This document shows positions 11,394 to 40,347 of a DNA stretch of 64,000 nt, in pieces (positions within the stretch are counted from its first letter, which is position 1; each line of letters opens with the position of its first letter). The notes beneath the pieces were generated by a model. It searched no databases. It was not told the origin of the DNA and was given only the letters and a program-made list of their open reading frames with translations. This DNA comes from Flavobacterium sediminis (GTDB lineage: Bacteria > Bacteroidota > Bacteroidia > Flavobacteriales > Flavobacteriaceae). The DNA lies in NCBI RefSeq assembly GCF_003148385.1, contig NZ_CP029463.1:1860001-1924000 (forward strand), in the 5' to 3' direction. Both the position numbers and the translations under genes were made by a program.

Positions 11394-12131
11394 TTCACGG
11401 TCTTGTCTTTTTCGGTCATCTCGCCAGGTAATGTACCCCAGAGTGGCGTTGAACAGATAGAATACGTATTTAGTGGTGTTGGCAATATTAAGTAACATTA
11501 AGTTTTGTACAATTTTAAACAGATTGTATACTTGCCAGGTAACCCAATTGTCCGGATACATTCTTCCTAAATTAAATGTACCGCCAAAACTGATTCCTGC
11601 GGGAATAGTAATGGCAAAAAAGAGTTGCCAGTTAATTGAACCTTCAGATAAATAATAGAAGGCAATGAAATTAAGGACGAACGAAAGCGTTAACCCTAAA
11701 GCCATATTTCGAAAGAAAATCAGATCAATATGATTTAAAAACCTTTTCTTTTTCCAGATCCTGAAAGCAATATAATTTCCGATGAAAGATACCGGATAGG
11801 TTAAAATGGCTCCGACATTCCCTAATAAAAAGTCAATAGTTCCGCTTAGAACAGTATTACAGGTGCCTATCAGGTTACCGAAATTATTCTTTTTAGTGAC
11901 TAAACGGGTCGCCATCATGGAAAAACAAGTATTTAAAATAGAGAAATAGCCTAAGTAAAAAACGTATGTTTTTCCTTTGAAATGAAAATTGTAAACGGTT
12001 TTGTAATATTCCAGATAGACAGATACAGACACAACAATAGCGACTCCTATAATGTCTAGGTATTGACTGTTAGTAATTCTTTTAACTAAGGTTAAAAGGG
12101 GAGAATTGGCTATTGCAGTGTCGTTTTGCAT
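11385..12131 (-). CDS. PnuC-like membrane transporter
   Basis: This 248-residue protein has about seven membrane segments. The blocks GTCNTVLSGTIDFLLGNVGA near residue 86, NWVTWQVYN near 196 and NIANTTKYVFYLFNATLG near 217 resemble the PnuC vitamin transporter family, which carries nicotinamide riboside or another vitamin. It is clearly different from the other PnuC at the start of the window and closer in style to Gram-positive members. It is last in the sdpR operon, overlapping the serine hydrolase stop by one base. The substrate is not determined. Confidence 0.65.
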   Translation of the reverse strand: MQNDTAIANSPLLTLVKRITNSQYLDIIGVAIVVSVSVYLEYYKTVYNFHFKGKTYVFYLGYFSILNTCFSMMATRLVTKKNNFGNLIGTCNTVLSGTIDFLLGNVGAILTYPVSFIGNYIAFRIWKKKRFLNHIDLIFFRNMALGLTLSFVLNFIAFYYLSEGSINWQLFFAITIPAGISFGGTFNLGRMYPDNWVTWQVYNLFKIVQNLMLLNIANTTKYVFYLFNATLGYITWRDDRKRQDRELS

Positions 12132-13434
12132 TATTCTTTACTGAAATTGAATTTCATTCCTCCTTGTTTTAAAATTAAGGAATTATCGCCAAAGTCTATT
12201 TCGATTCCGGCTGCTGCAAATATAAATGTTTTTTCGTCTCGGAGCGTTAGCGGAAAGGCTGATTGTCCGGTTGCCTGGGCCATTAATTCCTCATTTTTTT
12301 CGAAAACAGTTAATTTTAAAGGGATTTCGTTTGAGCTATAAGTGCCGGAATATTTTGCAATTAATTCAGGATTGATTTTTTCGAAACTTGGGAAAGGGAA
12401 AGGGAGCTTGTAATAGATGCTTAGAATGCCGATCATCATATCATTCAGACTATAATTGCTTCCGTTTGATATTAGTGAAACAGAGAGTTTCTCATTAGGA
12501 TTATATCCCATAGTAGCGTTAAAATTCTCTATTCTTCCGTTATGCCCGAAAAATTTTCTGTCACCGAAAGGAAATTGATAGAGTGCCATGCCATAACCGT
12601 CTTTCATCTCAGTCATTTCCTCTATGGATTTAGGTTTTAGTAGTTTGCCTTCAAAAAGAGCATTTAAAAAGCGGGTCAGGTCGGCAGGGTTTGAAATAAT
12701 TCCACCGGAAGAGAAGGCAACGTCGTTGTTCCATTCGGGTATAGTTTCCATTCGCCGTCATAAGAATAAGAATAGCTTTCTTTGTTCCTGGTATCCGTTG
12801 TATCAGGTTTGTAGTAGGTGCTTTTTAAGTCTGCTTTTTTAACGATTCGTTCTTCCAGATTTTCCGCAAATGATTTTTTAGTGATCTTTTCAATAATTCC
12901 ACCTAACAGAAAGTAGTTTGAGTTGCTGTATTCGAATTGGCTCCCCGGATTAAAACGCGAATCGTATTTTGCAATCTTTTGATAAATAGCCTCTTTAAGA
13001 TTCAATGTTTTCAATTCTTTTGATGTTATACTGTCGTGGTTAACAAAGTCCGGTATTCCGGTTCTTTGGTATAATAGGTCGGCAACGGAAATGCTGTCGG
13101 CTTTCTTAACTTTCGGAAAGAATTTGGTGAGTTTACTTTCTAAACGTAATTTTTTCTCTTCGATTAATTGCATGATCATTACAGCAGTAAAGGTCTTACT
13201 GATAGATCCGATTTTATAGGTAGTTAATCGATCTGCTGTAATTTTATTTTCAACATCGGAGAATCCGTAAGCTTTGCTGAAAACAACATTTTCACCTTCT
13301 CGGATGCAAAGACTGCCCATAAATTTGTTGTTTTCATATAGATAAGTAAGGTACTGATCCATTTTTTCAAAACGATCTTGACCGGATACTATTATTGAAA
13401 AGCTTAATGCAATTAGAAAAATCAGTTTTTTCAT
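12131..13434 (-). CDS. Serine hydrolase of the class C beta-lactamase/DD-peptidase fold, frameshifted in this sequence
   Basis: The N-terminal part has a signal peptide (residues 1-18) and the catalytic SxxK motif SISKTF near residue 77. It also has YSNSNY near 168, which supplies the Tyr-x-Asn element. The frame breaks near 12745-12747 after DGEWK. Adding one A to the AAA run (minus strand) joins it to TIPEWNNDVAFSSGGIISNP and gives 434 residues. Around residue 285 HNGRIENF supplies the expected HxG motif. Such exported enzymes hydrolyse peptides, esters or beta-lactams, so the substrate is uncertain. It lies 12 bases after the alpha/beta hydrolase. Confidence 0.85.
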
Positions 13435-15738: not shown

Positions 15739-16407
15739 CTAGTTCATTTTTGTGATTTTATAGATAAAATTATTTTCAAAACTGTTTTTAATTTTAGAAG
15801 CTTCTTGGGTTTTTAAATTGTTTTTTTGGGCTATTGATACTATTTTTTCTATTTCGCAGTCTTGTGAAAGGATCATATAAAAATTGTCAAATTCAATTTC
15901 AGTAAGTTGAGAGAATAATTTTTCGAAATACTCAAAATGTTCTCCGCAAAACCAGGCTTTTTCTTTGACGTTTTTTGCTTTTTTAGGATAATATGGCGGA
16001 TTCACAATGATAAAATCGAATTTGGTTTTGTCAATTTCATCGAATAAATCAGAATAAACGGTTCTGACCTTAAGGTTATTTCTTATAGCACTTTCTTCTA
16101 AATAATTCAGAGCAATCTTGTTAACATCACTTGCTGTTACAATAGCCCCTTTTTGCGATGCCAATAGAGAAATAATTCCGCTACCACAGCCTAATTCTAA
16201 GAAAGTTTTGTTGTTTAGTTCGAGGTCTTTAATGAAATCTAAAAGTATTTTTGTACTGAATGTTAAATGAGGAGGAAATACATCGGGATGCACTTGTACA
16301 CAGACAGATTCATAACAATACTTTCTGGGTTTTGAGTAATACAGTTTCAGTCCGGATTTCAGAAACGGGTGAGTGCATTTTTTTATGAAGTTTCTAATGT
16401 TTTTCAT
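15739..16407 (-). CDS. SAM-dependent methyltransferase with NPPYY motif
   Basis: The 222-residue class I methyltransferase has the SAM-binding FLELGCGSGIISLLA near residue 65 and the catalytic motif IVNPPYYPK near 132. The NPPY motif points to methylation of a planar nitrogen (Gln, adenine or guanine), as in HemK or RsmC-like enzymes. Its place as the last gene, six bases after a radical SAM gene, suggests a role in the operon's pathway. The substrate is unknown. Confidence 0.82.
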   Translation of the reverse strand: MKNIRNFIKKCTHPFLKSGLKLYYSKPRKYCYESVCVQVHPDVFPPHLTFSTKILLDFIKDLELNNKTFLELGCGSGIISLLASQKGAIVTASDVNKIALNYLEESAIRNNLKVRTVYSDLFDEIDKTKFDFIIVNPPYYPKKAKNVKEKAWFCGEHFEYFEKLFSQLTEIEFDNFYMILSQDCEIEKIVSIAQKNNLKTQEASKIKNSFENNFIYKITKMN

Positions 16408-16413
16408 GTTGTA

Positions 16414-17937
16414 TTATTCAGAATAAAAACCTTCAATTTCAGGTTGGCGGTATTTCCAGATCTTATGCATTAATTTTATTTCATAAGGATAGTTATAAAT
16501 ACCGGTTTTATACCGGATACTTGACGGAAGTTGTAACAGTCTTTTTTTCCAGCCTTTTATTCTGAAATCAGAAGCAGTAGGGTAATAGCCGTTTAAGACC
16601 GTTTCAAAGTTTTTAATGGTGTCAATCATATAAGGTTTTAACCAAGGAGTAAGCGGATTTTTTCGCAAGTCGAAATTTTCCCAGCTTGGTGAAATCCAAT
16701 CTTCTAATGTAGATGGAAAAGAAAAACCGGCATCGATAATTTGTTGGTATAATTCAGAGCCTTCAGTAGGAACCGGACTATATAAGTAAATAATGATTTC
16801 TGCTTTAGGATTGATCTCTTTGATCTCTTTGATGAAATTGATGTCCCATAAAATTTGGTCATAAACTTCTTTTTCAGTTACAGCCGGTAGCCCTAAAACA
16901 AAGGATAATTCAGGAATAATATCCGCATTTTTCATTCTGAGAACAAAATCCTTAATCATTTGTCCGGTTTGTGTACCGCCTTTGTTCATTTGTTTTAGGA
17001 TCTTATCATTTCCGGTTTCTGCTCCGAGAAAGATCATCCTACATCCTGCTTTTCGCATGAACTTCAGCTCATCGTCTGAATACATGTTAAGCGTATCTAT
17101 CCTGCCTTCTCCCCAGTAGTTTATGTTGTCATTCTTAATTAACTCTGAAAATTCCAACACTCTTTTTTTTGAGGTAAAGAAATTGTTATCATGGAACTCA
17201 ACGGCATCGATCTGGTATTTTTCTTTAAAGTATTTTATGTCTTCATATATACGGGCGGCTGACATTCCTTTCCAGCGGGCGTTGTATATAGGGACAACAG
17301 CACAAAAGGAACAACTGAACGGACATCCCATACTGGAATGATAAGACAGGGTTTTACTTCCCATGAAGGTCTTAGCCAGGTAATTTTTAACCGGATAAAA
17401 GGTGTTGAGGTATTCGTAGGGAAATTTAGGCAGACTATCCTGATCTAACAATGCTTCAGTTGCTGTTTTTATGATTTCGCCGTTATTGTTTTTAAAGATC
17501 AGGTTTTTGATATGAATAGTATCTTCCTTTCGGTTCGATTCTAAAGTATTGATGAGTTCCGGAAATGTTTGATCTCCCGGTCCATTTACGATATAATCTA
17601 CATAACCGGATTCTAAAGATACTTTGTACTGGTTTGAGGCAAAATACCCTCCCCAGATAGTGATGATGTCAGGAAATAATGTTTTGATTTTTTTAGTAAA
17701 AGGAATGGCTTCTAGCAGTTGAGGTCCGGGCATTACTGTTGAACCGAAGTATTTGAATTCTCCGGTCTTTAAATAATTCGCTATAGTTTGCCATGGATCT
17801 TGTTCTAAATTCCCATCAATAAAAACATAATCGTATTTTCCATGAACAGAGGCTCCTACCTGCAAAATGGAATTAGGGATCCGGTGTTTGCTGTTAGCGC
17901 TCTTCGGGTTAAATATGATGATCTTATGATTAGTCAT
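16414..17937 (-). CDS. Radical SAM protein with N-terminal cobalamin-binding-like domain (copy 1)
   Basis: This 507-residue protein has an N-terminal Rossmann-like domain of the B12-binding type (residues 1-150) and a radical SAM barrel with CPFSCSFC near residue 205 (CxxxCxxC cluster). GAETGND near 302 follows the family pattern. I see no DxHxxG cobalamin motif, so true B12 binding is uncertain. Family members do methyl transfers, ring closures and similar difficult C-H chemistry. It lies 52 bases after the arylsulfotransferase-like gene. It is the most diverged of the three radical SAM copies. Confidence 0.85.
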   Translation of the reverse strand: MTNHKIIIFNPKSANSKHRIPNSILQVGASVHGKYDYVFIDGNLEQDPWQTIANYLKTGEFKYFGSTVMPGPQLLEAIPFTKKIKTLFPDIITIWGGYFASNQYKVSLESGYVDYIVNGPGDQTFPELINTLESNRKEDTIHIKNLIFKNNNGEIIKTATEALLDQDSLPKFPYEYLNTFYPVKNYLAKTFMGSKTLSYHSSMGCPFSCSFCAVVPIYNARWKGMSAARIYEDIKYFKEKYQIDAVEFHDNNFFTSKKRVLEFSELIKNDNINYWGEGRIDTLNMYSDDELKFMRKAGCRMIFLGAETGNDKILKQMNKGGTQTGQMIKDFVLRMKNADIIPELSFVLGLPAVTEKEVYDQILWDINFIKEIKEINPKAEIIIYLYSPVPTEGSELYQQIIDAGFSFPSTLEDWISPSWENFDLRKNPLTPWLKPYMIDTIKNFETVLNGYYPTASDFRIKGWKKRLLQLPSSIRYKTGIYNYPYEIKLMHKIWKYRQPEIEGFYSE

Positions 17938-17989
17938 TTTTTACAAATATATTTCCGTGTAATTCTTTCTTGGATAAATTAGATTTTTT

Positions 17990-19468
17990 TTAATTGCTGC
18001 TCTGAACATTCTGATCGGAATTAAAAGTCAAATTATATTTTAAAGCTCTGTAAGAATAAGTAAAACTATCCGGATAGTTTGTAAAACTAATATCCAAAAC
18101 AATAGTACCATTAGGATCTACCTCTGTAATATCTGATTTATTAGCATTACTTTGTGACGTTATATTTCCACCCCAACCAATACAGTAATTTCCGTTGCTT
18201 AATTTTTGAACAGAGCCCATAATATCAGAATAGCGACCGAGTTCCGTATACTCATATACAAGATTTGCAGTTAGATTCGTTTCATTCAGCTCAAATTCAG
18301 CAATTCTGCTTTGTTGCGGGTTCTTTGTCACTCCATTGTCAAATAATAACAAATTACCATTATTCAGGATGTTGGCATGATGTTGATGTGAAATAATAGT
18401 ATTTCCGGTTAGATTGAAATCATCATTGTTTCCTCCCAATCGCCACATTATTTCTCCTGTAGTTCTGTTGATCTTATAAACTTGGTTTGTGTGTCGTGCA
18501 GAGACAATAAAATTCTCATCGTTTGGGTCAATTGCTATAGAATTAAAATGAAAGTAGTCTACCTTTTCAGCTGTAGCATATTGAGTATAGTATAAGGGAT
18601 CGGTAGCGCTTAGAAGTTCAGGATGTTCAGCCGTATCCCATTCAAAAATTACCTGATTGTTCAGGACTTCCTGAAAGACAAATTCAACAAGTTTAACAGC
18701 ATTACTACCGCCGTATGCAGTCATGTCTACATTTTCTCGTATGTATTGACCCGGAACAATATAGTGGTCATCATCAATATAGATGAAATCGTGGTTTTCA
18801 ATACTATAATCGTAGGCGTTATCGGGAGGTAAAAAGTCAATTTGTTTAATGACTTCAAAATTTTCATCCATTACAATGGTCTTTTTAGTGTCATTAATAG
18901 TATAAGTGAATCTTTTACCCTGAACAGTTTCGAAGAATTTAAAATTGATAGCACCGGTATAAGCTAATTTTTTATAATAAACAGGGAAACCGTTATTGTC
19001 TAAGATAGCAATATAGGTAAAATCATCTGCAGCAGATGGCGAAAGTTTGTAAAGGTTTATGAATAGGTAGCCGTCAGAAGGATTGTTTTTAGCTATTAAA
19101 TTAATGCCTGGCATATCTTCGGGTAAATAATGTATTGTATACGTTTTTGCTGTAGGGGACTCCATTTGAATGACAATATCTTCACCCGGAGTTAGCTTAA
19201 TTGGGGTTGTTTTGCCTGTAACTTTTTCATTATTTATGAATATTTTTTTGAAAGGATTGAAATCGTTTAATGTAACTTCTATTTCATTTAATGTATTAAG
19301 TGACGTAATGTAATAATCGAATATTTCAGGATTAAATTCCGGATATAACTCTCCTGTTGAGACCTGAATTAAAGGGAGATCGCCTGTTGTTGACTCATCG
19401 TCTTTAGTACAGGAAAAAAAAGTGAAACAAATGAGCGCAAGGACAATTATAATATTATGGTTTTTCAT
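17990..19468 (-). CDS. Arylsulfotransferase-like (ASST) lipoprotein
   Basis: The ATG at 19468 gives 492 residues with a lipoprotein signal (FTFFSC, Cys near residue 20). An N-terminal beta-sandwich of the cadherin-like type (STGELYPEFNPEIFDYYIT, residues 37-55) is followed by a beta-propeller from about 140. The ASST family marks are HDFIYIDDDHYIV, MWRLGGNNDDF and ISHQHHANIL near residue 365; in true ASST enzymes a propeller His carries the sulfate. It would sit outside the inner membrane. It overlaps the preceding methyltransferase by 14 bases, so it belongs to the operon and may modify the exported product. Confidence 0.78.
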   Translation of the reverse strand: MKNHNIIIVLALICFTFFSCTKDDESTTGDLPLIQVSTGELYPEFNPEIFDYYITSLNTLNEIEVTLNDFNPFKKIFINNEKVTGKTTPIKLTPGEDIVIQMESPTAKTYTIHYLPEDMPGINLIAKNNPSDGYLFINLYKLSPSAADDFTYIAILDNNGFPVYYKKLAYTGAINFKFFETVQGKRFTYTINDTKKTIVMDENFEVIKQIDFLPPDNAYDYSIENHDFIYIDDDHYIVPGQYIRENVDMTAYGGSNAVKLVEFVFQEVLNNQVIFEWDTAEHPELLSATDPLYYTQYATAEKVDYFHFNSIAIDPNDENFIVSARHTNQVYKINRTTGEIMWRLGGNNDDFNLTGNTIISHQHHANILNNGNLLLFDNGVTKNPQQSRIAEFELNETNLTANLVYEYTELGRYSDIMGSVQKLSNGNYCIGWGGNITSQSNANKSDITEVDPNGTIVLDISFTNYPDSFTYSYRALKYNLTFNSDQNVQSSN

Positions 19469-20264
19469 ACGTGAGGGAATTTTTTTCACAAGTGATAATA
19501 TACGATTCTAATATTCCTTTTTCGATTTTTACTTTTCGGTTGACTATTTTAAAATACAGATATAAAGATAGTTCTTTGGGATTAAAAAGAGTACGATACT
19601 TCATTTTATCAGAATAGTGTAAACTTTTAAGTTCAAAATCATTAATCACAAATTTATATTTTGTTTTTTCAAGATCATGGATTTCTTCAATATGTTTTAT
19701 CTTAAATCCGTGATTAATAAGTGTCGTTTCCCAGCTTGTTAAGCTTGCCGATTCGTCTGCCTGAATGATATTAAAATAAGATAAAGAAATAGTATTTATT
19801 TTCTGCCTTGTATCTGAAGAAGTTGACGGACACCAAATGGTTTCATTAAAAATAAAAAGCCCTTTGTCTTTTAATACTCTGAAAGCTTCTGTAACGATCT
19901 GTTTGTATTGTTCAGGGCTTTGTATAGCCAATACAGATTCACAAATGACAATGTCGAAAAAGTTATCTTGATAAGGGAAACTATTTTTGGTGTGATGCTT
20001 AAAATTGCAATTGAACAGGTTTAATTTCTTTTTCCTTTTATTACAAAAATGAATCATTTCTAGCATATTGTCTATCCCTTCATAATAAATAAAAGGATTA
20101 TTTGACAAAATGGCTGCTGTATGTCCTGTACCACAACCGATCTCTAATATAGTCTTAGCTTCGGAGGTATGCGGAATTTTTTTTAGGAGCAGATGAGTTC
20201 CTAATCGACCTTGTGGATGTTGGTTGATTCTTCCGGTTCTCGCTATATATTTTAAATAGTTCAT
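19455..20264 (-). CDS. Class I SAM-dependent methyltransferase
   Basis: The 269-residue protein has the SAM-binding loop ILEIGCGTGHTAAIL near residue 40 and FDIVICESVLAIQ near 102, followed by FRVLKDKGLFIFNE. This is the methyltransferase type 11/UbiE-like pattern, usually acting on small molecules or lipids. The N-terminus (YIARTGRINQHPQGRLGT) recalls enzymes that act on lipid or quinone-like substrates. It overlaps the downstream lipoprotein gene and is 45 bases after the flippase. Its substrate is not known. Confidence 0.85.
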   Translation of the reverse strand: MNYLKYIARTGRINQHPQGRLGTHLLLKKIPHTSEAKTILEIGCGTGHTAAILSNNPFIYYEGIDNMLEMIHFCNKRKKKLNLFNCNFKHHTKNSFPYQDNFFDIVICESVLAIQSPEQYKQIVTEAFRVLKDKGLFIFNETIWCPSTSSDTRQKINTISLSYFNIIQADESASLTSWETTLINHGFKIKHIEEIHDLEKTKYKFVINDFELKSLHYSDKMKYRTLFNPKELSLYLYFKIVNRKVKIEKGILESYIITCEKNSLTYEKP

Positions 20265-20309
20265 ATATCACATGTTTGACTCTTGTTCTCTGCTTTGTAT
20301 TCAGGGTCT

Positions 20310-21458
20310 TTATGATTGAGATATTGAGTTTTCAAGTTTCTTGATGAGGATTAAGAACAACCATTGTGATACACATACACTGATGAAAATTCCTTCTAAA
20401 CCTATTCTTTTTAATAAAATCAGACCGAGAGCGCAATTTAAGATCGCAATAAGGAGGTTAGAATATACTATTTTTTTTTCCAGTTTTTCTTTATACAAGT
20501 TTAGAATAGGAATAACATAAAAAAATACAGGAAGACTGGACAAAAAACATAAGAGATAGATATGCCATTCAAAACCTAGTTTAATATAGTGCTCTAATAA
20601 TAGCCAGATAGACAACGAACCCAAAATACTTATAGGGATCGCTATTTTTTTAAATAGTATTTTTAGTTTAGAGATCACTTTTGTGTTTGACCTGTAAAAG
20701 GATTTGTTTATCGGAGCTGTTATAAAAACAGAAAGGGCTTGTAACATTAAAAAGGCAGTAGTAATGGTTTGATATGAAGAGATTATTTCATTTGGCAGAA
20801 AAACAGTTACCAGATACAGATCTATTTTAGAACTAATCATTCCGCTCAATCCCAAAATAAAAAACGGAAAGCTGAGAATAAGCTCATTTAAAGCGATCTT
20901 TAATCTGAAAGGTTTATTCCGAAGGTTAAACAGAAAAGATATCAGAATAAGTTTGAGGATTATACTTAGAGCATAAAATTCTAAAACACTGGCGAGATCA
21001 AATATGGAAAGCTTGTATAATGCTCCGTAGAAAAAACTAAACCCAATGATTTCAACAACTAATTGTGGACCGAACTTTTGCTGATAGATTACTAAACTTT
21101 CAAAGGAATTATAAGCATAACTGATAAGGATAATGAAAATCGATAACAATGCAATTTTAGACGGGAAAAAAGCAAATAAAACAAAGGAAGGAAGGATCAG
21201 TAGCCCTCTGCTGAAGAGATTCATATAAAAATTAGAATAGATCTCCGAAGGATTTTGACTGTATTTCCGGATCAGATAATCTTTATTTCCCCAGTTAGCA
21301 ACAAAAGTAAAAAAAGAGATCCAGACAATGGTGCTTACATATTCTCCCCAATCGTTCTTTCCGAAATGTTTAATCCCGGAAAGGATGATAATAAAATTTA
21401 AGAGAGGAACGGTAATTCCTCGAATGATATTAATGCCTATTTTTAAAAACCTATTCAT
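20310..21458 (-). CDS. Polysaccharide/lipid flippase of the Wzx-MATE type
   Basis: The 382-residue protein consists almost entirely of hydrophobic segments (about ten to twelve). The block WGEYVSTIVWISFFTFVANWG near residue 37 is typical of oligosaccharide flippases, and the overall length is slightly short for Wzx. Its role would be to turn a lipid-linked intermediate to the outer side of the inner membrane. It overlaps the glycosyltransferase stop by eight bases. It is the operon's only recognised exporter. Confidence 0.8.
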   Translation of the reverse strand: MNRFLKIGINIIRGITVPLLNFIIILSGIKHFGKNDWGEYVSTIVWISFFTFVANWGNKDYLIRKYSQNPSEIYSNFYMNLFSRGLLILPSFVLFAFFPSKIALLSIFIILISYAYNSFESLVIYQQKFGPQLVVEIIGFSFFYGALYKLSIFDLASVLEFYALSIILKLILISFLFNLRNKPFRLKIALNELILSFPFFILGLSGMISSKIDLYLVTVFLPNEIISSYQTITTAFLMLQALSVFITAPINKSFYRSNTKVISKLKILFKKIAIPISILGSLSIWLLLEHYIKLGFEWHIYLLCFLSSLPVFFYVIPILNLYKEKLEKKIVYSNLLIAILNCALGLILLKRIGLEGIFISVCVSQWLFLILIKKLENSISQS

Positions 21459-22496
21459 GATACAATGTAAGATAAGCTTTTAATGTAAAGTCAGTATCAT
21501 ATAATAAAACTCTTTTTCTTTCCGGATTTTCATTACTAAGCAAGTTCAAACAATTTGCAACGAATGATTCTTCAGAATTACACACTTTCCATTCCGGCAG
21601 TTTCTGCGAAACGCCGACATCGAAAGAGACAATTCGCATTCCTGAATAAAGGGCTTCCGAAAAAACATAACCGAATGATTCGTATTTACTGGTATGGAGC
21701 AATATTTTTGACATACTCATTTTTTGTAAAACATTGTCTCTGGATAGTTCTCCCGTCAAAGTTATGTGTTCATTCAGATTGTGACTTTTTATCAGAGATC
21801 TGATTTTTGAAGATTCATTTCCACTTCCTATAATTTCCACGTTTAAATCGGGTCTTTTTTCAACGACCTTTTTAATAACATCAATAAAAAAAGGATAATT
21901 TTTGATGCTGTTTAGAGAACCGACACCTAAAATATCAATTTTAGCATCTTTGATTTTCGGAAAAGAGTCCGTATCAATGCCCAGGGTATGATCTCCGATT
22001 TTAAACCGTAATTTTTATATAATTCGGATTGATGATGCTTAGAAAGAGTGACTACTTTTGAGTGTTTTTCATGGATGAATTTGGCATAACTGTTTTTAAA
22101 AACATCTTGTCCCATTGCTGTAACAATGTGTGAAATATTTTTTTGGCGGGCAAAAAGTTGACCTATTAAGGAACATTCTCCGATCCAGAAGCTATGGATT
22201 ACAGTAAACGGGGTCTCTAAATGGATTTTTTGAAGCAACTTATAGGATGTATACCAAGTTGCTATTTTTCTTGATTTTTTATTACATCCGTTCAACGGAA
22301 TGACATCAATCCCGTTCCAATTGTATTTTTTGTTTGTAAAAGGATATTGGAATGGTATTAGAGTCAATTTGGCTTGAGGTAAAGCCTTTCGCAAAGCCAT
22401 TAAATAGACCTGTAATGAAGGGATTGTTACAGAGTCATTTTCAGAAACCGCAAATCCGGGAGTTAAAAAAACGATATGAGATATGGAGCTATTCAA
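21451..22496 (-). CDS. Glycosyltransferase family 4, frameshifted in this sequence
   Basis: The N-terminal half (MNSSISHIVFLTPGF; HSFWIGECSLIGQ near residue 95) is followed by a break after SEIIPWA. One more G in the GGG run at 21980-21982 gives IIPWGIDTDSF, the normal GT4 linker. The C-terminal half then reads ILGVGSLNSIKNYPFFIDV and VEIIGSGNES, with HTSKYESFGYVFSEAL near residue 265, the donor-binding ESFG motif. The restored protein has 348 residues. The start is TTG at 22496, eight bases inside the preceding gene. It transfers a sugar from a nucleotide donor. Confidence 0.85.
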
Positions 22497-23921
22497 TAGG
22501 ACTAATTATTTTGTACAGTTTCCATCCTTCCGGCAATTCCTCTAAAACTTGTAAACGATAGTTGTTAGATATAAAATTCCAGTTTTTCATAGGGTTTTTA
22601 CCTTCCCATTGCCGTGAAAACTTTTGCGAATTAAATAAAAGTAAAGAATTTTCATGTACTGTGACGTATTCCTGTTGCCACAAATTTTGATATTCAAAAT
22701 GTAACCCTCTGCCTTGCAGCGCAACATCCATGTCAAAAGAGTATAAAACAGCATTTTGATAAGGTATCAGTTCTTGAGCTATTTCTTTTTCCAAATGATT
22801 CCTTTCTTGAGTCGGTTTTAACGCTAGATAGCAAAGGAACAATTGAAGAACAAAAGTTGCTATGCCCGTTGCAATATAAATCTTTAAGGATAAAAACGTA
22901 GCTGCTAACAGTTGAAAGCCAGGATAAAGAATTATAAGGAGCAAGGGGAAAGATACTATTAAAAAGCGACTGTTTTGAAAGGGGATGCCCGATAAAAAAA
23001 AGCTATAAGCTAAGAAGGAGAGAGTCAATAAAATAACGGCTCGTTTTTTCAGAAAGTTTTTAAAAAGAAACGGAAAGAATAAAATACCTGAAAATAAATA
23101 GCGAGGATGGAACAAGGACGAGAACGCATATATAATGTTGGGTAAAAAATTATAGTTTGTTCCGTCCGGAGTGGTAAACGATCTTTTATAAAAGTTTTGT
23201 ACAGACCAACTTTTCAGCCAGTTGTGCTGTAGAAACTCCGTTGTATTTTCATACCGGATGAGATAATGAGGCAATAGGAGTATTGCGCCAGTCAAAATGA
23301 AAAAAGGTAAATGTTTGAAGTGCTCCTTTCTCGATATATAAATGTACAAAATATATAAGCTGAGCGGTAGTAAAACGACAAATGTTGCATAACGCGTCAT
23401 GATGGCACTTAATCCGAAAATAACTACCAGATATAAGCTTTTAAGGGATGAGGTTTTAAGGTAGAAAAAACCGTTATAAAAACACAATACTACGAAAGCT
23501 GTTGACAGCATGTCAGACATTACGGAGAGACTCAGCCGAAGCATATAAGGAGATAACCCAGAAAGAGCATACAAAAGATCCGGGCATTTTGGTTTTGCGG
23601 ATAAATGAGTTTTATAATTTTAAAGCTATATAATATAACGATTAAATAAGAGATAAAACTAACCATTTGTAAAGCTATTGCCGGTTTTAGTACAAAAGAA
23701 AGAACGGCTCCTGCTATAGGATAGTAGAGAGGCCAAAAATAATCGCCGGGAAAAGTACCGGTTCTGAAATACAGGTTCAGAGCTTTAGTATATCGTAAAT
23801 ACTCATAACTGTCTTGTCCATACAGCCCGTCAAAATCAAGAAAAAAGCGAAAAACAACCCATACAATGGCTAATATAACCAAAAAGAGCGATGTGTTTTT
23901 TATGTTTTTTAATAGAAGCAT
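22489..23921 (-). CDS. GT39/ArnT-like membrane glycosyltransferase, frameshifted in this sequence
   Basis: This is a GT-C fold protein of about 477 residues with many membrane segments. The first loop has GLYGQDSYEYLRYTKA near residue 32, where the Asp/Glu pair fits the catalytic site of polyprenyl-phosphate sugar transferases. The frame is lost at the run 23582-23584. One more C (minus strand) gives NAPDLLYALSGLSPYMLRLS and continues to a stop at 22489. Such enzymes use a lipid-phosphate sugar donor on the outer face of the inner membrane. It begins three bases after the radical SAM gene. Confidence 0.78.
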
Positions 23922-23924
23922 AGA

Positions 23925-25297
23925 CTATTTCGTATACCGTTTTAACAAGGCAGTTATTGCAATAGATTTTATCTTAAATTTATAGGCTTTCCATCTGGAA
24001 TGAGATAGGTTTCTGAAATACTCTACTTCATTAACCACTTTTCGTACGGCATAATCATAAAATTTTCTCGGATATCTACGTTCAAAATCAATATCCCGGT
24101 CGGTTGAAGTTTCCCAGTCCGGCTGATGTGTTATTTTGTTCTTAATTTCATAATACAAACCGGTTCCTTTTATGGGGTAGGCTATGGTAATAGTATAGTG
24201 AGTAGGGTTGGCTTCTTTCAAATAAGTAATGGTTTCTTTGATATCGGCTATGGTTTCTCCGGGATAACCGAGCATAATAAAAGTTCCGGTTTCAATACCG
24301 ATCCGGTTTGTTTTTTGAATCATCTCTTTTACAGTTTGTACGTCAACTCGTCTGTCCATAGCATCTATAATAGCTTGGGAACCGCTTTCAGCACCGATCC
24401 ATATCCGGTAACATCCGGACTCTTTAAGCAGTTGCAGAATATCATCATTCAATCGTTCTGCCCGGGTAATACACTCAAAAGGAATGTGAATATTTTCTTT
24501 TAGTATTTCAGAATGGAACTCCTTGAGCCATTTATGACTTACCGTAAAAACATCGTCAACAAACCACAACATGTCTGGGTTATAAGTAGCCTTTAACTCT
24601 TTTATTTCTTCAATAACTAAACGAACAGGGCGTCTTCTGTAGCTTTGTCCGTAAACGGCGGTACTACACCATTTACAAGTATAAGGACAGCCCCTTTGAG
24701 TAGAAATGGTCATAGAACTTTTACCATGGTTGTTCTTCCATGTTTCCAGATATCGGTTGATATTGATAGCGGCTCTGTTGGGCAGCGGAAGTATAGCCAG
24801 ATCTTTTAATTTTGTTCTGGGTTAGTTTGAATGACCTTGCCGTTTTCCTGAAAAGCAATACCATCCAGATTGTGATAATCTTTGCCGTTAAGTAGTGCAC
24901 AACAAAGTTCATAAGTGGTTTCTTCACCTTCACCGATGACTAAAAAGTCAGCACCTGCTTTCAGATAATTAGTAACATTATAAGTAACATCAGGTCCGCC
25001 TAAAATAATTTTCGGAGTCCCGTATGCTTTGGAACGAAGAATCCGGATCAACCGTATGACATTTATTTTTGTCATAAGATTAGTGTAAATGCAAACGATT
25101 TCCGGTTGTTTCTCTTTTAGATAGGTCAGTTGTTCTTTCTGTGTGGAAAAAGTGCTGTCAAATACCTCATGTTTAATGTTTTTGCTAAGTAAATAACCGG
25201 ACACATACAAAAGCCCGAGCGGAGGGTAAGGTTTCATGATCTTTTGCTCCTTAGGGTCTTCAGATAAATAATATGCATGTGTCAGAACAAGGCTCAT
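23925..25297 (-). CDS. Radical SAM protein with N-terminal cobalamin-binding-like domain (copy 2), frameshifted in this sequence
   Basis: An N-terminal domain with PYPPLGLLYVSGYLL near residue 24 and LVIGEGEETTYEL near 118 is followed by a break at the AAAA run 24810-24813. One more A gives PEQKLKDLAILPLPNRA and leads to the radical SAM cluster in RGCPYTCKWC near residue 202. The restored length is 457 residues. FVDDVF and WIGAESGSQ follow the same order as in copy 3, so the two look like a gene duplication. No DxHxxG motif is seen. The start overlaps the methyltransferase gene by four bases. Confidence 0.84.
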
Positions 25298-26067
25298 TTC
25301 TTTTCTAATACGATTAAATAATGATCGGAATATTTAGCTAAAAAAGACAGGTTCTTAAAAAGGCTATCCAATCGGGTCAATACTTTAAAAAAAAGCTTTT
25401 TGTTTTTAAAAAAGGGCTCCAGATAGGACGGAGGTATAAAAAAACCAATGGGTTTAACTTCAATGGTGTTGAACTTATCTTTGGATAAATTTACAATTTC
25501 TTTCGGGTTATAATAGTACGTGATGACCTTTTCTTCACCGAGTGTGGCAACAGCAGCCGTTTTTCTTCTGGAAATTTTTGAAAATTGCCCTTTCAGTAAA
25601 AAATATAGTTTTTCCCATAAGGTTCCTTCGGGCATAAGAGTAAGGATTAATTTTCCATTGGCAGACAGAACCGTATCAGTTGTTTTCAGAAAACGATCCA
25701 TTTCGTCCGGAGACAAACAGTTCAGTCCGCCGAAATTAGAAAAAACCAGATCGAAATCTTTAGCATTAAAGTGATTTGAGACAGCTCTGATATCCGCTTG
25801 TATGAATGACAGACTGGGATGGGATCCTTTTTCTTTTGCAACTTCGATCATCTTTTCCGAAATGTCCGTTGCACAAACGGTATGGTGTTGTCGGGCAAGC
25901 CAGATCGCATCTTCTCCTGTGCCGCAATTTATTTCAAGAATGGTCAAAGGATTTGTGAGATGTTTTTGAAGATGATGATATACCATAGCTCTTTGTGCTT
26001 TACCAATTGAAGTATAGGTAAAGTGAGAGTCATAATGTATGGCTTCAACATCGAAACTAGCTTTCAT
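25294..26067 (-). CDS. Class I SAM-dependent methyltransferase
   Basis: The 257-residue protein has the SAM motif ILEINCGTGEDAIWLA near residue 44, in which the usual first Gly is Asn, then ATDISEKMIEVA and FDLVFSNFGGLNCL near 112. It ends in a basic, hydrophobic segment that could contact a membrane. The pattern suits methylation of a small molecule or lipid. It sits between two radical SAM genes and overlaps both (by 11 and 4 bases), so the three are probably produced together. Confidence 0.85.
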   Translation of the reverse strand: MKASFDVEAIHYDSHFTYTSIGKAQRAMVYHHLQKHLTNPLTILEINCGTGEDAIWLARQHHTVCATDISEKMIEVAKEKGSHPSLSFIQADIRAVSNHFNAKDFDLVFSNFGGLNCLSPDEMDRFLKTTDTVLSANGKLILTLMPEGTLWEKLYFLLKGQFSKISRRKTAAVATLGEEKVITYYYNPKEIVNLSKDKFNTIEVKPIGFFIPPSYLEPFFKNKKLFFKVLTRLDSLFKNLSFLAKYSDHYLIVLEKK

Positions 26068-27517
26068 TTTTTAATTGATTTAGCCTTATTTTATCTATAA
26101 AAGAGCTCGGAATATAATACAGTAACTTAGCTATTGTCTTTATTTTTTGAACATCTGAAAGCTGAGGTTTTTTCAGAATCCCTTTTAGTGCGTTTAATCC
26201 TTGCGTTTTTCGGAACTCTTTGTGAACAAAGCGCTGCAGTTTTCTGTAATATTCTGTGTTGTAACTTCCTTTGAACATGATATCAAAATCATCCGAATCA
26301 GTCCAGTTTGCCTTGATTTTAAGGTCTTCTTTAACTTTGTCGTAGAACGGAGTTCCCGGCAACGGATAAGATACAGAAATCCCGATGTTATCCGGCTGTA
26401 GTTCTTTAACCATTGCTATGGTTTTTTGAATGTCATTCTGATCCTCGCCTGGATAGCCGAATTGTAGAAAAAAAGCAACTCTCACATTTTTTTGTTGCAA
26501 CAAACGGGTGGTTGTGTAGATCTGCTCAACTGTAGTGCCTTTGTCCATAGCATCCAGTATCTTTTGGGAAGCACTTTCGGCTCCTATCCATACCTCTTCT
26601 AAGCCCGATTCGGCTAAGCAGTCAATGGCATCTTCTTTTAAAAGCAGATCAACGCGGCTTTGAATATAATAGGAAATACGGAGCTTGTTTTTTTTGAGAA
26701 GGGTATTGAAATCCTGAACCCAATTAGGCTTTAGTCCGAAAATATCATCACACATCCAGTACCGACTTACATTGAATTGCTTCCGTAAATATTTTATTTC
26801 GTTAACGATATATTCGGGAGAATGTGCGTTGTAGCGATTGCCATAGATTGGTTTTGCACACCAGTTGCATTTATACGGACATCCGCGGGTGGTGGCAATG
26901 TTCAGTGTAAATTCCTGACGACTTTGTTTCCAGATTTTTCGATATTCATCCATGTTTACCAGATCCCATGCGGGCAAAGGGAGTTCGTCTAAATTCTGAA
27001 GGACAGCTCTGGATTTGTTTTTTTGAATTTCACTATCCTTTTTGAAAACAATTCCGTCAATTTTATTTAAAGAGGTGTTATTTTCTAAGGCATTGATAAG
27101 TTCCAGTAAGGTTATTTCGCCTTCACCCTGAATAACAAAATCAGCTCCTACATTGAGGTATTTTTCATAATGGTCAGTGGCATCCGAACTGTTAACAATG
27201 ACAATACAGTTGTTTTGTTTACCCATTCCGATCATCTCAAAACAAGCTTCCCTCATATTGGTCAAACACATTTTGGTCAGGTAGTTGAAGCCGTCGTCAT
27301 AGATCACTAAGTATTTCGGCTTTTTTTCCTGCAGAACAGGGATTATCGTTTCGGGACTGTCTAAAAGATTGGTGTCAAACAGTTCTGTTGAAAAACTATT
27401 TTTACGCAGTAAAGCAGCAGCATATAGTGTTCCTAATGGAGGAAAAGGGGTCTTGTTCTTCCATTGTTTCGGATCTAACCGATAGTAATAAGAATGCGAA
27501 AATAAGATATCAAGCAT
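26057..27517 (-). CDS. Radical SAM protein with N-terminal cobalamin-binding-like domain (copy 3)
   Basis: This 486-residue protein has an N-terminal Rossmann-like domain (PFPPLGTLYAAALL near residue 24; FVIQGEGEITLLEL near 128) and a radical SAM domain with RGCPYKCNWC near 212. WIGAESASQKILDAMDKG near 317 and FLQFGYPGE near 355 fit the BchE/HpnJ-like group. It shares its unusual N-terminus (SHSYYY...DP) with copy 2. The expected cobalamin DxHxxG motif is not visible. It is the second gene of the operon and overlaps the nucleotidyltransferase gene by eight bases. Confidence 0.87.
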   Translation of the reverse strand: MLDILFSHSYYYRLDPKQWKNKTPFPPLGTLYAAALLRKNSFSTELFDTNLLDSPETIIPVLQEKKPKYLVIYDDGFNYLTKMCLTNMREACFEMIGMGKQNNCIVIVNSSDATDHYEKYLNVGADFVIQGEGEITLLELINALENNTSLNKIDGIVFKKDSEIQKNKSRAVLQNLDELPLPAWDLVNMDEYRKIWKQSRQEFTLNIATTRGCPYKCNWCAKPIYGNRYNAHSPEYIVNEIKYLRKQFNVSRYWMCDDIFGLKPNWVQDFNTLLKKNKLRISYYIQSRVDLLLKEDAIDCLAESGLEEVWIGAESASQKILDAMDKGTTVEQIYTTTRLLQQKNVRVAFFLQFGYPGEDQNDIQKTIAMVKELQPDNIGISVSYPLPGTPFYDKVKEDLKIKANWTDSDDFDIMFKGSYNTEYYRKLQRFVHKEFRKTQGLNALKGILKKPQLSDVQKIKTIAKLLYYIPSSFIDKIRLNQLKNES

Positions 27518-28415
27518 GTTCTTCCGGTAATTCTATTTGATATTTTTCTCGGATCTCGTCGTATTTTTTATTTAAAGCATCAATAACCTTTTTTTGAAAA
27601 TTTGAAGGGTGATGTTTCGAAACATTTTGGGAAGATTTAAAAGCAATAGCAAAATCTTCACTGCTCATTTTTTCTTTGTATTTGATCTTCCAGACAGCAA
27701 ATGTTATACTGAAGCAAACACGTTCAATAAATTCTCCTATGGAATTGTTGAATAATGCTTCATAGTATTGCAACAGCAGTTTTTTAGGAATGTTTTCTAA
27801 TTCACTCCAATTACAATCTTTGTTCGGTAAAAAGTGTTTATACCAGTTGTTAGCCTTAAAAAAATGTTCAAAAACAGATCCGTGTAGCGGAATCAGCGTT
27901 GCTATTTCAGTAGCAGTAAACCTGTTTTTTTCTATGATTTCCAAATTGTCAGAAGTAATAAAGTAATTCATACAGAAATACTTCCTGGAATTGAACAGAA
28001 ATATTTTTTTAAAAAGGATCAAAGCCATTCTGCACGACCACAAACGACCGGGTTTTGTAATGATAAAAAAATCAACATCACTGTGCTTGTCGAAATAGCC
28101 TTTAGATAGCGAGCCTGAAATTGCTATTCCGTCGATAAAAGGGAAAAACGTATAGGCAAAGCGGGCTCTTTTTTTAGCTTTTATCATTGCTTTTTGCGCA
28201 TTTTTATATCCTGTTTCCCGTTTAGTAATATATTCTTCGTTTAGATGCGGGTGGTAATAAGCGGCTGTTTTTTCAATGATGTTTTTTGAAAGTGCAAGCG
28301 CTATTTCTTCCTCAAAATCTTTTTGGGTAGTATGAGATGAATAATGAAGTATTTCCTCTTTTTTTAACGGGTGGTTAAATAAAGAGAAATACAGTAAGGG
28401 TTGTAAGATTTTCAA
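27510..28415 (-). CDS. Nucleotidyltransferase domain protein
   Basis: The 301-residue protein has an N-terminal helical part beginning ILQPLLYFSLFNHPLKKEEI, typical of this group, and the nucleotidyltransferase motif GSLSKGYFDKHSDVDFFI near residues 100-117, with the metal-binding Asp pair. The family transfers a nucleotide to a small molecule, an RNA or a protein. The TTG at 28415 is the start: a stop lies two codons upstream, and no ATG precedes the conserved region. It is the first gene of the eleven-gene operon. It could activate a substrate or serve as a regulator. Confidence 0.8.
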   Translation of the reverse strand: MKILQPLLYFSLFNHPLKKEEILHYSSHTTQKDFEEEIALALSKNIIEKTAAYYHPHLNEEYITKRETGYKNAQKAMIKAKKRARFAYTFFPFIDGIAISGSLSKGYFDKHSDVDFFIITKPGRLWSCRMALILFKKIFLFNSRKYFCMNYFITSDNLEIIEKNRFTATEIATLIPLHGSVFEHFFKANNWYKHFLPNKDCNWSELENIPKKLLLQYYEALFNNSIGEFIERVCFSITFAVWKIKYKEKMSSEDFAIAFKSSQNVSKHHPSNFQKKVIDALNKKYDEIREKYQIELPEEHA

Positions 28416-28633: not shown

Positions 28634-31476
28634 TTAATGTGCTTCTAACCAGTTTTGTCCGATTCCCATATCAACTACTAAAGGAACGGCTAGCTGGAAA
28701 GCATTTTCCATCTCGCTTTTGATCAGAGGTTTTATTTTTTCTAATTCCGAGTTGTGTACATCAAACACCAATTCATCATGAACCTGTAACAACATTTTCG
28801 ATTTCCAGTTTTCTGCTCTCAATCGTTTGTGAATGTTAATCATGGCAATTTTGATAATATCGGCAGCACTTCCCTGAATAGGGCATTAACGGCATTTCGT
28901 TCGGCAGCACCGCGTACTACAGCATTGGCTGAGTTAATGTCTTTCAGATAGCGTCTTCTTCCTGAAATCGTTTCCACATAACCATGTTGGCGTGCAAATT
29001 CAATTTGTTCCTGAATATATGCTTTTAATCTTGGATAAGTTTTGTAATACGCATCGATCAAAGCAGCACTTTCACTTCGGGTCAGATTAGTCTGGTTACT
29101 CAATCCGAAAGCGGAAACACCGTAAATGATTCCGAAATTTACCGTTTTGGCATTGCTACGTTGCTCTTTGGTCACTTCTTCAAGAGGAACATTAAAAACT
29201 TTTGCGGCCGTACTTTTGTGAATGTCTTCATGGTTCTGAAAGGCTTTGATCATGTTTTCTTCACCGGATAAAGCAGCGATAATACGCAATTCGATTTGTG
29301 AGTAGTCGGCATCTACTAAGGTATAGTTTTCATCGCGGGCAATAAATGCTTTACGAATTTGCCGACCTCTTTCCGTACGGATCGGAATATTCTGTAAATT
29401 CGGGTTGTTGGAACTCAAACGTCCTGTGGCAGCAACCGTTTGCATATAATCGGTATGAATGCGCTGCGTTTTCGCATCAACCTGTTCAGGTAAGGCATCC
29501 ACATACGTGCTTTTTAGTTTGACCAATTGACGCCATTCTAAAATATTGCGTACAATTTCATGATCTTTGGCTAAGTAGCTCAAAACTTCTTCACCCGTAG
29601 CATATTGTCCCGTTTTTGTTTTCTTAGGTTTCGGACCTCCGATTTTCAATTTGTCGAACAGGATGTCACCTAATTGTTTTGGCGAAGCCAGATTGAAACT
29701 TTCACCGGCTTCTTCGTATATTTTTTGTTCAAATGCGGCAATCTCTTTTTCCATATCTGTAGAAATGGCTTTTAAGAAATCAACATCTAAACGGATACCC
29801 TCCCGTTCCATATCAGCCAGAACCTGAACCAACGGGATTTCGATTTCGTCAAATAGTTTTTTGGTTCCTACTTTCTCTAAAATAGGTTGAAAGTGCTGTT
29901 TTAACTGGTAAGTAACATCAGCATCCTCTACAGCATATTCTTTTGCAGCTTCTACTTCGACCTGACGCATGGAAAGCTGGTTTTTCCCTTTTTTACCGAT
30001 CAAGGCTTCTATAGGTTTAGGAGCGTATTTTAAATAAGTTTCACTCAACACATCCATATTATGACGCATATCCGGATTGATCAGATAATGGGCGATCATA
30101 GTATCAAAGAACGGTCCTTTAATTTCAATACCATAGTTGGCTAAAATTTTCAGGTCATACTTCATGTTCTGTCCGATCTTTTCGATATTCTCATTAGAAA
30201 AGAAAGGAATAAATTTTTCAGCTAAAATTTTTGCTTCTTCTTGATTTTCCGGGAACGGGATATAAAAGCCTTTTCCTTTTTCCCATGAAAAGGCAATTCC
30301 GACTAATTCGGCATTGAGTGCATCAATTCCTGTAGTTTCTGTATCAAAGCAAACAGAGGTTTGTTTTTCTAGATTTTGTAAAAATAATTTTAGCCCTAAA
30401 TCACCTTGAACAATCTGGTAAAAATGTTCAGTTGATTCTAAAGTAGCATAAAATGAATTAGAAGCGGTATCTTCTTCGTGTTCGCTGAATCCGAAAAGAT
30501 CCATCTGGTTTTCGGTTGTTTTCTTCTGTGGTGCTTTTTTTGCAGAGCCATCCCCGTTTCTATTGCTTTCAATTTCGTCGTATTCTTTTCCGGAACCGAA
30601 TAATTTATCGAATTGGGCTTTCATTTGACGGAATTCCAGTTCCTGAAAGATAGCGTCTGTTTTTTCCACATCCGGTTTTGATAGTTCAAAATCATCCTCA
30701 TCAAATTCAACCGGACAGTCGAGTAATATGGTCGCTAATTTTTTAGATAGGATTCCTTTTTCTTTGTTGGCTTCTATGTTTTCTTTCATTTTACCTTTTA
30801 GCTCGTGAGTGTTCTCTAAAAGAGTTTCTATAGAGCCATATTGAGCCAGGAATTTTTTCGCTGTTTTTTCGCCTACACCCGGTAATCCCGGAATGTTGTC
30901 GATAGCATCGCCCATCATGGCTAAAAAGTCAATGACTTGTAACGGATTGTCAATTTCAAATTTTTGTTTTACTTCATCAACTCCCCAAATTTCAATTCCG
31001 TTACCCATTCGGGCAGGGCGGTACATAAATATATTTTCGGATACCAGTTGGGCAAAATCTTTATCCGGAGTGACCATGAAAACTTTAAATCCTTCTTTTT
31101 CGGCTTGTTTGGATAAAGTTCCTATCAGATCATCAGCTTCATAGCCTGCTTTTTCAATAATGGGAATTTGCATGGCTTTCAACAATTCCTGAATGTAGGG
31201 AACAGCAATTTTAATAGCTTCCGGTGTTTCATCCCGGTTCGCTTTATAGTCTTCAAACATTTCCAAACGATAAGTGCTTCCTCCTTTGTCAAATGCAACA
31301 GCTAAATGATCCGGTTTTTCGCGTCGTATGACATCCATTAAAGAATTCATGAATCCCATGATAGCAGAAGTATCCATTCCCTTTGAGTTGATTCTGGGGT
31401 TTTTGATAAATGCGTAATAACCTCTGAAAATTAAAGCGTAGGCATCAAGTAGAAATAATCGTTTTTGTGTTGACAT
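28634..31476 (-). CDS. polA: DNA polymerase I, frameshifted in this sequence
   Basis: PolA fills gaps in repair and removes Okazaki primers. The 5' nuclease domain covers residues 1-290, with MGDAIDNIPGLPGVGEKTA near 187. The 3'-5' exonuclease starts near 375 with DTETTG, so proofreading looks active. The polymerase has DADYSQIELR near 720 and VHDE near 902. The frame is lost at the CCC run 28881-28883 (minus strand). One more C gives NAPIQGSAADIIKIA, the exact family motif, and a 947-residue protein. A real truncation here would remove the catalytic VHDE, so a sequencing deletion is far more likely. Confidence 0.97.
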
Positions 31477-37000: not shown

Positions 37001-37281
37001 AATAAGATTGTAAAGGCACTTGAAAACACAGACATCATGTTGACCATTAAAGCTACTTGTGATGCGCTGGTGGCAAACATGGCAAAAAAAGCACCGAGCA
37101 TTTGAAATAAGGGAGCTCCGGGAGGATGTCCAATTTCTAATTTTGCTGAAGTTGTGATGTATTCGCCACAATCCCAAAAACTCATGGAAGGTTCAACAGT
37201 TAAAGAGTAAGTGGTTAATGCAACGGCAAAAGTAATCCATCCTAAGACGGTATTCCATTTCTTGAAATTGAATGAACTCAT
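34082..37281 (-). CDS. DUF2723 membrane protein (GT-C fold O-glycosyltransferase type), frameshifted in this sequence
   Basis: The restored protein has 1066 residues with about ten membrane segments in the first 700 and a soluble helical C-terminus. The first loop has FWDCGEYITTSAKLEIGHPPGAP near residue 35, the DUF2723 mark and probable Asp/Glu catalytic site of this GT-C glycosyltransferase family. IGDNDTFPLWYAQE lies near 690. The frame breaks at the GGGG run 34553-34556 (minus strand). One more G gives NWYWGNSGSPEIYHDPETRR. The family is linked to the protein O-glycosylation found in Bacteroidota, but the role here is inferred. It is a single-gene unit with its own terminator. Confidence 0.88.
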
Positions 37282-40287: not shown

Positions 40288-40347
40288 CTCGACATAATTG
40301 CTAAACACACAACACAAACTGAATTTTAGAAAAATTAAAAACATTAT

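Follow-up and report, generated by a model that had tools for sequence, protein, structure and literature searches.

What could a bacterium build with a cluster that sets three radical S-adenosylmethionine (SAM) proteins and three methyltransferases beside glycosyltransferases, a putative flippase and a sulfotransferase-like lipoprotein, and which of these genes belong together? The cluster occupies positions 15739-28415 of a 64,000-nucleotide stretch (the window; NZ_CP029463.1, positions 1,860,001 to 1,924,000) of the Flavobacterium sediminis genome, which is one contig of 3,441,304 bases. The open reading frame (ORF) listing gives eleven genes there, all on the minus strand; neighbours either overlap or are separated by 52 bases or fewer. 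The cluster is probably an accessory locus for a lipid-linked surface glycan, arranged around a conserved core whose task would be to make or remodel an unusual building block shared between loci. An earlier reading of the same DNA (the sequence-only reading) gave the order, strand, coordinates and tight packing of the genes as the ORF listing has them, and Pfam agrees with its three radical SAM proteins, three methyltransferases, GT4 glycosyltransferase, arylsulfate-sulfotransferase-like lipoprotein (ASST) and nucleotidyltransferase. That reading also took the eleven genes for one unit. They are not one conserved unit: a core (NTase-rSAM1-MT1-rSAM2) and a further module (rSAM3-MT3) enclose a middle part that varies.

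Conserved core and the rSAM3-MT3 module

The cluster was compared with 80 named loci, which are the best rSAM1 matches among at least 556 confirmed relatives. These loci end about 10 kb downstream, and counts out of 68 refer to those that extend 11.4 kb or more from the start of rSAM1. The NTase family is found in 79 of the 80 (the exception, L065, begins inside rSAM1), MT1 in 78 and rSAM2 in 72. The core order NTase-rSAM1-MT1-rSAM2 has median spacings of -8, -8 and -4 bases, and the spacing falls within 60 bases either way for 72/79, 68/78 and 65/72 of the successive pairs; in the window, the same pairs overlap by 8, 11 and 4 bases. By contrast, ASST recurs in three loci and a gene like MT2 in two of the 80, with Flavobacterium haoranii counted in both. 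Co-occurrence across genomes, which the sequence-only reading had itself proposed as a test, is seen for the core genes but not for the eleven as a unit. rSAM3 is present in 27/68 loci.

A search of 395 Bacteroidota genomes, with thresholds of our own choosing (E<=1e-10 for NTase, E<=1e-60 for rSAM1 and E<=1e-80 for rSAM3), detected NTase in 29, rSAM1 in 27 and rSAM3 in 17. The three sets are fully nested: all 17 rSAM3 genomes are among the 27 with rSAM1, all 27 of these are among the 29 with NTase, and none of the 395 has rSAM3 outside the NTase genomes. The rSAM3 profile derives partly from the window and from G130, G136, G195 and G329, which match by construction, and in G116 and G219, the two genomes that have NTase but not rSAM1, the NTase matches are weak (5.3e-16 and 2.1e-13). 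rSAM3 genomes span 13 genera, and rSAM1 genomes span 21. The chance of such nesting would be 3e-23 and 9e-40 if genomes were independent, but they are related, so these values are only a guide. On account of the nesting, a chance neighbourhood was rejected. NTase and rSAM1 start at most 6 kb apart in 26/27 genomes, and rSAM1 and rSAM3 at most 18 kb apart in 16/17; the exception is each time G381, where the genes lie on two contigs.

Because NTase is found in only 39/299 genomes of the genus Flavobacterium, the core is accessory within the genus. Matches to MT1 in distant families are mostly 26-33% identical, and may not represent the same gene. Spread by plasmids was considered and rejected: 22 plasmid records match rSAM1, none above 28.3% identity. 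One of the named loci (L053) is on a metagenome-assembled contig titled Bifidobacterium breve (CALPIE020000027.1), yet the cluster on it is of the Flavobacterium type and adjoins polA; the record is probably a mislabelled bin.

The first core gene, NTase (27510..28415), encodes a Pol-beta-type nucleotidyltransferase that matches PF01909 (NTP_transf_2) with 23.4 bits against a cut-off of 21. Besides this score, it has the GS motif and the D-x-D carboxylates by which membership was judged. G101, D113 and D115 are kept in 47/47 aligned members, and position 102 is Ser in 33, Ala in 13 and Gly in 1. Kinship with the MNT antitoxin was rejected (E 0.093 only). NTase is followed by rSAM1 (26057..27517; PF04055, 68.3 bits), by the SAM-dependent methyltransferase MT1 (25294..26067; Methyltransf_25, 67.6 bits) and by rSAM2 (23925..25297), which in the window lies in two pieces (24806-25297 and 23925-24821), but is intact in relatives (457 amino acids in L044, the F. 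haoranii locus). At the far end of the cluster are rSAM3 (16414..17937; PF04055, 59.5 bits) and, 6 bases on, MT3 (15739..16407), a methyltransferase with a small domain (MTS, 63 bits).

The three radical SAM proteins are predicted to be B12-type radical enzymes. The N-terminal piece of rSAM2 passes the cut-off of 32.1 bits for the B12-binding domain PF02310 with 44.8 bits, whereas rSAM1 (30.4) and rSAM3 (31.1) fall just below it. Among copies that pass length and score limits, the CxxxCxxC motif is present in 80/80 rSAM1, 68/68 rSAM2 and 15/15 rSAM3. A tree with a sample of 78 radical SAM proteins places rSAM1, rSAM2, rSAM3 and rSAM4 in one group each, and rSAM1 and rSAM2 of relatives are sister groups with support of 100/99; outgroup branches are very long, which makes the deeper joins unsafe. 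The best solved relative of rSAM1 is 9ccb, a radical SAM protein listed without a functional name, and both rSAM2 (tested with the L044 copy) and rSAM3 have the aminoglycoside enzyme AprD4 as their best match in the Protein Data Bank (PDB). In NCBIfam, where rSAM2 was represented by an intact copy from L035, all three proteins are nearest to BchE, PhpK and HpnJ, far below every equivalog cut-off. Scores for rSAM1, rSAM2 and rSAM3 are 113.8, 125.5 and 49.5 bits against 360 for the ladderane family TIGR04072, and 137.5, 155.3 and 89.4 bits against 600 for PhpK-type P-methyltransferases. As a check for phosphonate synthesis, the PEP mutase model PF13714 gave two matches, one of them over the cut-off, but these carry no weight because the model also matches E. 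coli.

Exchangeable middle of the cluster

The genes between the core and rSAM3 differ from locus to locus. In the window, rSAM2 is followed after 3 bases by a gene for a GT-C membrane glycosyltransferase resembling GT39 (22489..23924), which overlaps a GT4 glycosyltransferase gene (21451..22505; Glycos_transf_1, 59.2 bits) by 8 bases. Both are split, into 23532-23924 and 22489-23619 and into 21927-22505 and 21451-22014, respectively, and both are intact in relatives. The sequence-only reading listed the eleven genes in their correct order without mentioning that these two and rSAM2 each lie in two frames. Its GT39 call is weakly supported, in that the C-terminal piece reaches 17.1 bits for PMT_2 against a Pfam cut-off of 26.1, the N-terminal piece has no match, and the sole NCBIfam match of an intact relative is 22.7 bits against 150.

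Overlapping the GT4 gene by 8 bases is a gene for a multi-pass membrane protein (20310..21458), which we regard as a putative flippase on account of ten hydrophobic segments, found by a simple hydropathy count, and of a pattern of replacement with an ABC transporter. The best NCBIfam match of this transporter in relatives is PglK (247.5 bits, below the cut-off of 1000). Flippase-like genes occur in 25 and PglK-like ABC transporter genes in 23 of the 68 loci, and never together. GT39 and GT87 genes exclude each other in the same way (22 and 23 of the 68, none with both). If loci were independent, the chances of these exclusions would be 1e-6 and 1e-5. A profile of the putative flippase compared with solved structures gave a best E of 0.31, to viral structural proteins, which we read as chance; against a relative resembling Polysacc_synt, its hhalign probability was a very weak 2.9%.

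Two accessory genes complete the middle. MT2 (19455..20264; Methyltransf_31, 66.3 bits) follows the putative flippase after 45 bases. It overlaps ASST (17990..19489) by 35 bases if the longest ORF is taken, or by 14 if translation of ASST begins at the second Met, and a gap of 52 bases then separates ASST from rSAM3. The ASST lipoprotein matches PF05935 with 99.2 bits. Membership was judged by this domain and an aligned His/Asn/Arg/His set, and both were found: H314, N316, R332 and H370 align with H356, N358, R374 and H436 of E. coli AssT, which we take to be its catalytic residues. Because these four residues are kept and ASST is the sole PF05935 protein in the genome, a sulfate step catalysed by ASST is plausible in this species. 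ASST is found in 3/68 loci (L044, the F. haoranii locus, L047 and L048), in each of which it directly precedes rSAM3, as in the window.

In other relatives, the middle holds GT2, GT4, GT39, GT87 and EpsG-like genes (the last below the cut-off), together with genes for polysaccharide deacetylase, GNAT, FkbM methyltransferase, SGNH hydrolase, a SPASM radical SAM protein and an NKWYS protein. The GT2 protein encoded beside GT87 in L060 resembles dolichol-phosphate mannose synthase (E 6.9e-10); GT2 enzymes of this kind are the usual makers of donors for GT-C enzymes. A family of 374-amino-acid proteins without a Pfam match in the one member scanned occurs in 30/80 loci, and precedes the GT2-GT87 pair in L051 (15121-16242) and L060.

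Nature of the product

Of the products suggested in the sequence-only reading, a lipid-linked or surface glycan remains the likeliest, and a surface-glycan assignment is fairly well supported. Glycosyltransferase-like genes are downstream of the core in 61/63 loci with both flanks and upstream in 0/63, and translocator-like matches are downstream in 44/63, in a count whose reference proteins were taken from the downstream side and therefore favour it. In some distant families, Wzz, Wzy_C/O-antigen-ligase or GT9 genes are near the core; among 19 proteins of distant loci sent to Pfam were two Wzy_C, one Wzz, three GT9, one GT4 and one sulfotransferase. A polyketide or terpenoid product, also suggested in that reading, was rejected, as no such Pfam match was found in the cluster.

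Several observations weigh against a glycan locus of this kind. Its proposed flippase lacks a family match: Pfam detected no flippase family (Polysacc_synt, MurJ) in any of 20 members, one of which gave an unrelated DUF match. Translocator-like matches also occur upstream in 12/63 loci, so an ABC-type match alone is weak evidence. A glycosyltransferase without a recognised translocator is seen in 15 of the 68 loci, a translocator alone in one, and neither in one. Several of the other proteins from distant loci, L165 and L172 among them, have no relation to glycans (Tex, MazG, AhpC-TSA in two cases, a pair of amidohydrolases and a metallophosphatase); the rest were DUF748 or gave no match. In L165 (G197) and L172 (G363), NTase and rSAM1 have hardly any glycan gene near them that is recognised by comparison with our own reference set. 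The cluster was described as a complete-looking route, but its Pfam matches include no phosphoglycosyl transferase or sugar-nucleotide gene, and the PF02397 and PF00953 enzymes of the genome lie elsewhere, outside the window. Finally, related species share ancestry, so counts of loci and genomes are not independent.

From gene families (those of the flippase and GT39 only weakly assigned), gene order, co-occurrence, nesting and replacement patterns, we infer a lipid carrier, an order of steps, a topology and every chemical reaction of a pathway. NTase would attach a nucleotidyl group to a small substrate. On the tagged substrate, rSAM1 and its sister rSAM2 would carry out one or two radical steps, either a C-methylation or a change of ring or carbon skeleton as in HpnJ, and MT1 would methylate it to give the shared unusual unit. 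Species-specific GT4 or GT2 enzymes could then add sugars on a lipid carrier; the flippase-like protein or the PglK-like ABC transporter would carry the product over the inner membrane, and GT-C enzymes (GT39 or GT87) would extend the glycan outside. In this species, the ASST lipoprotein possibly adds sulfate, and rSAM3-MT3 might provide a second modification step, present in some lineages only.

The proposed roles of NTase as tagging enzyme and of rSAM1, rSAM2 and MT1 as remodellers of a shared sugar or anchor are based on their NCBIfam and PDB relatives and on the HpnJ precedent, and the chemistry could differ greatly. B12 radical SAM enzymes are mostly presumed to be methylases, and ring formation or rearrangement is ascribed to a few others (PMC13142503). 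In bacteriohopanetetrol cyclitol ether synthesis, a glycosyltransferase, a deacetylase and a radical SAM enzyme (HpnI, HpnK and HpnJ) act successively on a lipid-linked sugar, with HpnJ acting last, on the lipid-linked glucosamine made by the other two (PMC12583986). HpnJ is the second or third NCBIfam relative of all three radical SAM proteins (rSAM2 as the L035 copy), and 12/80 relatives of the cluster include a polysaccharide deacetylase gene, but all three proteins score far lower for HpnJ (134.7, 148 and 104.1 bits) than the 577.6 that its model requires. We know of no counterpart of NTase or of the paired methyltransferases in the HpnI-HpnK-HpnJ system.

In the Fom1/Fom3 and PhpK pathways, a nucleotidyl tag precedes methylation by a B12 radical SAM enzyme, and the nucleotidyltransferase fold differs from that of NTase. 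The cluster also differs from the PhpK system in its radical SAM scores (89-155 bits against 600). On plasmid pDMC1 of Solidesulfovibrio magneticus, an rSAM1 relative is part of a polysaccharide-type locus, beside genes for GT2, GDP-fucose synthase and an aminotransferase. However, this relative is only 23.7% identical, sugar-nucleotide genes are present there, and the annotated nucleotidyltransferase is unlike NTase (E 9.2). No named pathway among those tested fits the cluster, and none of the few known loci compared shares its synteny, which the sequence-only reading had named as an observation that would refute it. Literature combining radical SAM with glycan, flippase, glycolipid, nucleotidyltransferase or Bacteroidota describes no such locus, in a search whose scope excluded most subscription journals and whose single hit concerns viruses of methanogens.

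A constant core with varying sugar genes would also be expected if the core made a special lipid anchor common to all loci, rather than a sugar. rSAM1 and rSAM2 would then act on an acyl chain or polyprenoid, in the manner presumed for ladderane, HpnR or tetraether enzymes, and the variable genes would glycosylate and export the product. The NCBIfam relatives of rSAM1 and rSAM2 (again as the L035 copy) include BchE, HpnJ, HpnR and the ladderane family, and a cluster without a phosphoglycosyl transferase suits an anchor of its own. This explanation is nevertheless rather unlikely, as Pfam finds no acyl carrier, ketosynthase or prenyltransferase in the cluster, the radical SAM scores are far below the equivalog cut-offs, and AprD4, the best PDB match of rSAM2 and rSAM3, is an aminoglycoside enzyme. 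SQHop_cyclase_C (PF13243) is unmatched in the genome, which argues against such an anchor and led us to reject the hopanoid pathway. The patchy presence of the cluster in the genus and its many tailoring genes could instead reflect a small glycosylated natural product that is secreted. We consider this doubtful, because PglK-like transporters, Wzz/Wzy_C genes and GT-C enzymes indicate lipid-linked glycans, and Pfam identified no regulator within the cluster of the window.

That the cluster is a variant of the O-glycosylation locus general to Bacteroidota (LFG) seems very improbable, although the layout given for that locus in a review, in which conserved ends flank a flippase and species-specific glycosyltransferases, is similar, and the review also states that O-glycans are commonly methylated (PMC12871550). 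That locus, as described there, starts with metG and wzx and ends with two conserved glycosyltransferases, and neither feature was found by ORFs and Pfam in the cluster and its neighbours. Here, polA and an ArsR gene are adjacent, conservation lies in NTase and radical SAM genes, and distribution is patchy. The word 'radical' is absent from the review (PMC12871550).

If the locus does assemble a lipid-linked surface glycan and its core makes a rebuilt sugar or anchor, this unit would represent a novel type of surface building block in environmental Bacteroidota, and exchange of the middle genes would yield a natural series of derivatives. Tentatively, and with appreciably less confidence than in a glycan locus as such, we propose a Bacteroidota pathway not yet described, in which NTase tags a small substrate and the sister B12 radical SAM enzymes rSAM1 and rSAM2 reshape its carbon skeleton; glycosyltransferases particular to each lineage would then build it into a surface glycoconjugate of a new class, with, for example, a C-methylated or carbocyclic glycan core. 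NTase and rSAM1, with rSAM3 nested inside their distribution, make a compact, testable set for B12-type radical enzymes in glycan assembly.

Frame breaks and genomic context

In the nearest named locus, that of F. haoranii (L044), all eleven genes recur without change of order (MT3 is cut by the locus end), and rSAM2, GT39 and GT4 are whole. polA (28840..31476, minus strand), which adjoins 41/80 loci, is also broken in the window, near its C-terminus, and is whole in L044 (946 amino acids). All four breaks correspond to one-base gaps in the alignment to L044, an alignment with 38 gaps whose lengths are not divisible by three, many being bunched in poorly matching stretches. Since a living cell would hardly have a broken polA, assembly error is the likeliest cause of the breaks. 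Three split genes might also indicate that the window copy is decaying and non-functional, but this is unlikely, given that the presumably essential polA is split too, that one-base gaps fit assembly error, and that the other eight cluster genes are open and 62-95% identical to those of F. haoranii. DNA identity to L044 is uneven: it is 70-81% from about 24100 to 27100, across rSAM2, MT1 and part of rSAM1, and 83-97% in other 500-base blocks (96-97% in those of ASST), which looks like recombination in mosaic blocks. The polA break suggests base-level assembly errors in this genome, and a PF00144 serine hydrolase gene (12131-13434) is likewise in two overlapping frames, the pieces of which were searched separately only.

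The proposal that the eleven genes form an operon finds support in their packing, from which we infer it, but not in motif scans of promoters and terminators. Promoter-like motifs number 63, against 52.3 in shuffles (standard deviation 7.3), and terminator-like motifs 11, against 8.5 (standard deviation 3.2), both near chance; a scan for TTTG-TAnnTTTG promoters observed 6 with 5.99 expected. The sole Rfam match at the gathering threshold is a tRNA. Near the locus, at 34480-37281, is a gene of the TMEM260-like (PF11028) protein O-mannosyltransferase family. A strong AT skew of 0.27 marks positions 40001-42000, compared with -0.16 to 0.08 in the remaining 2-kb blocks.

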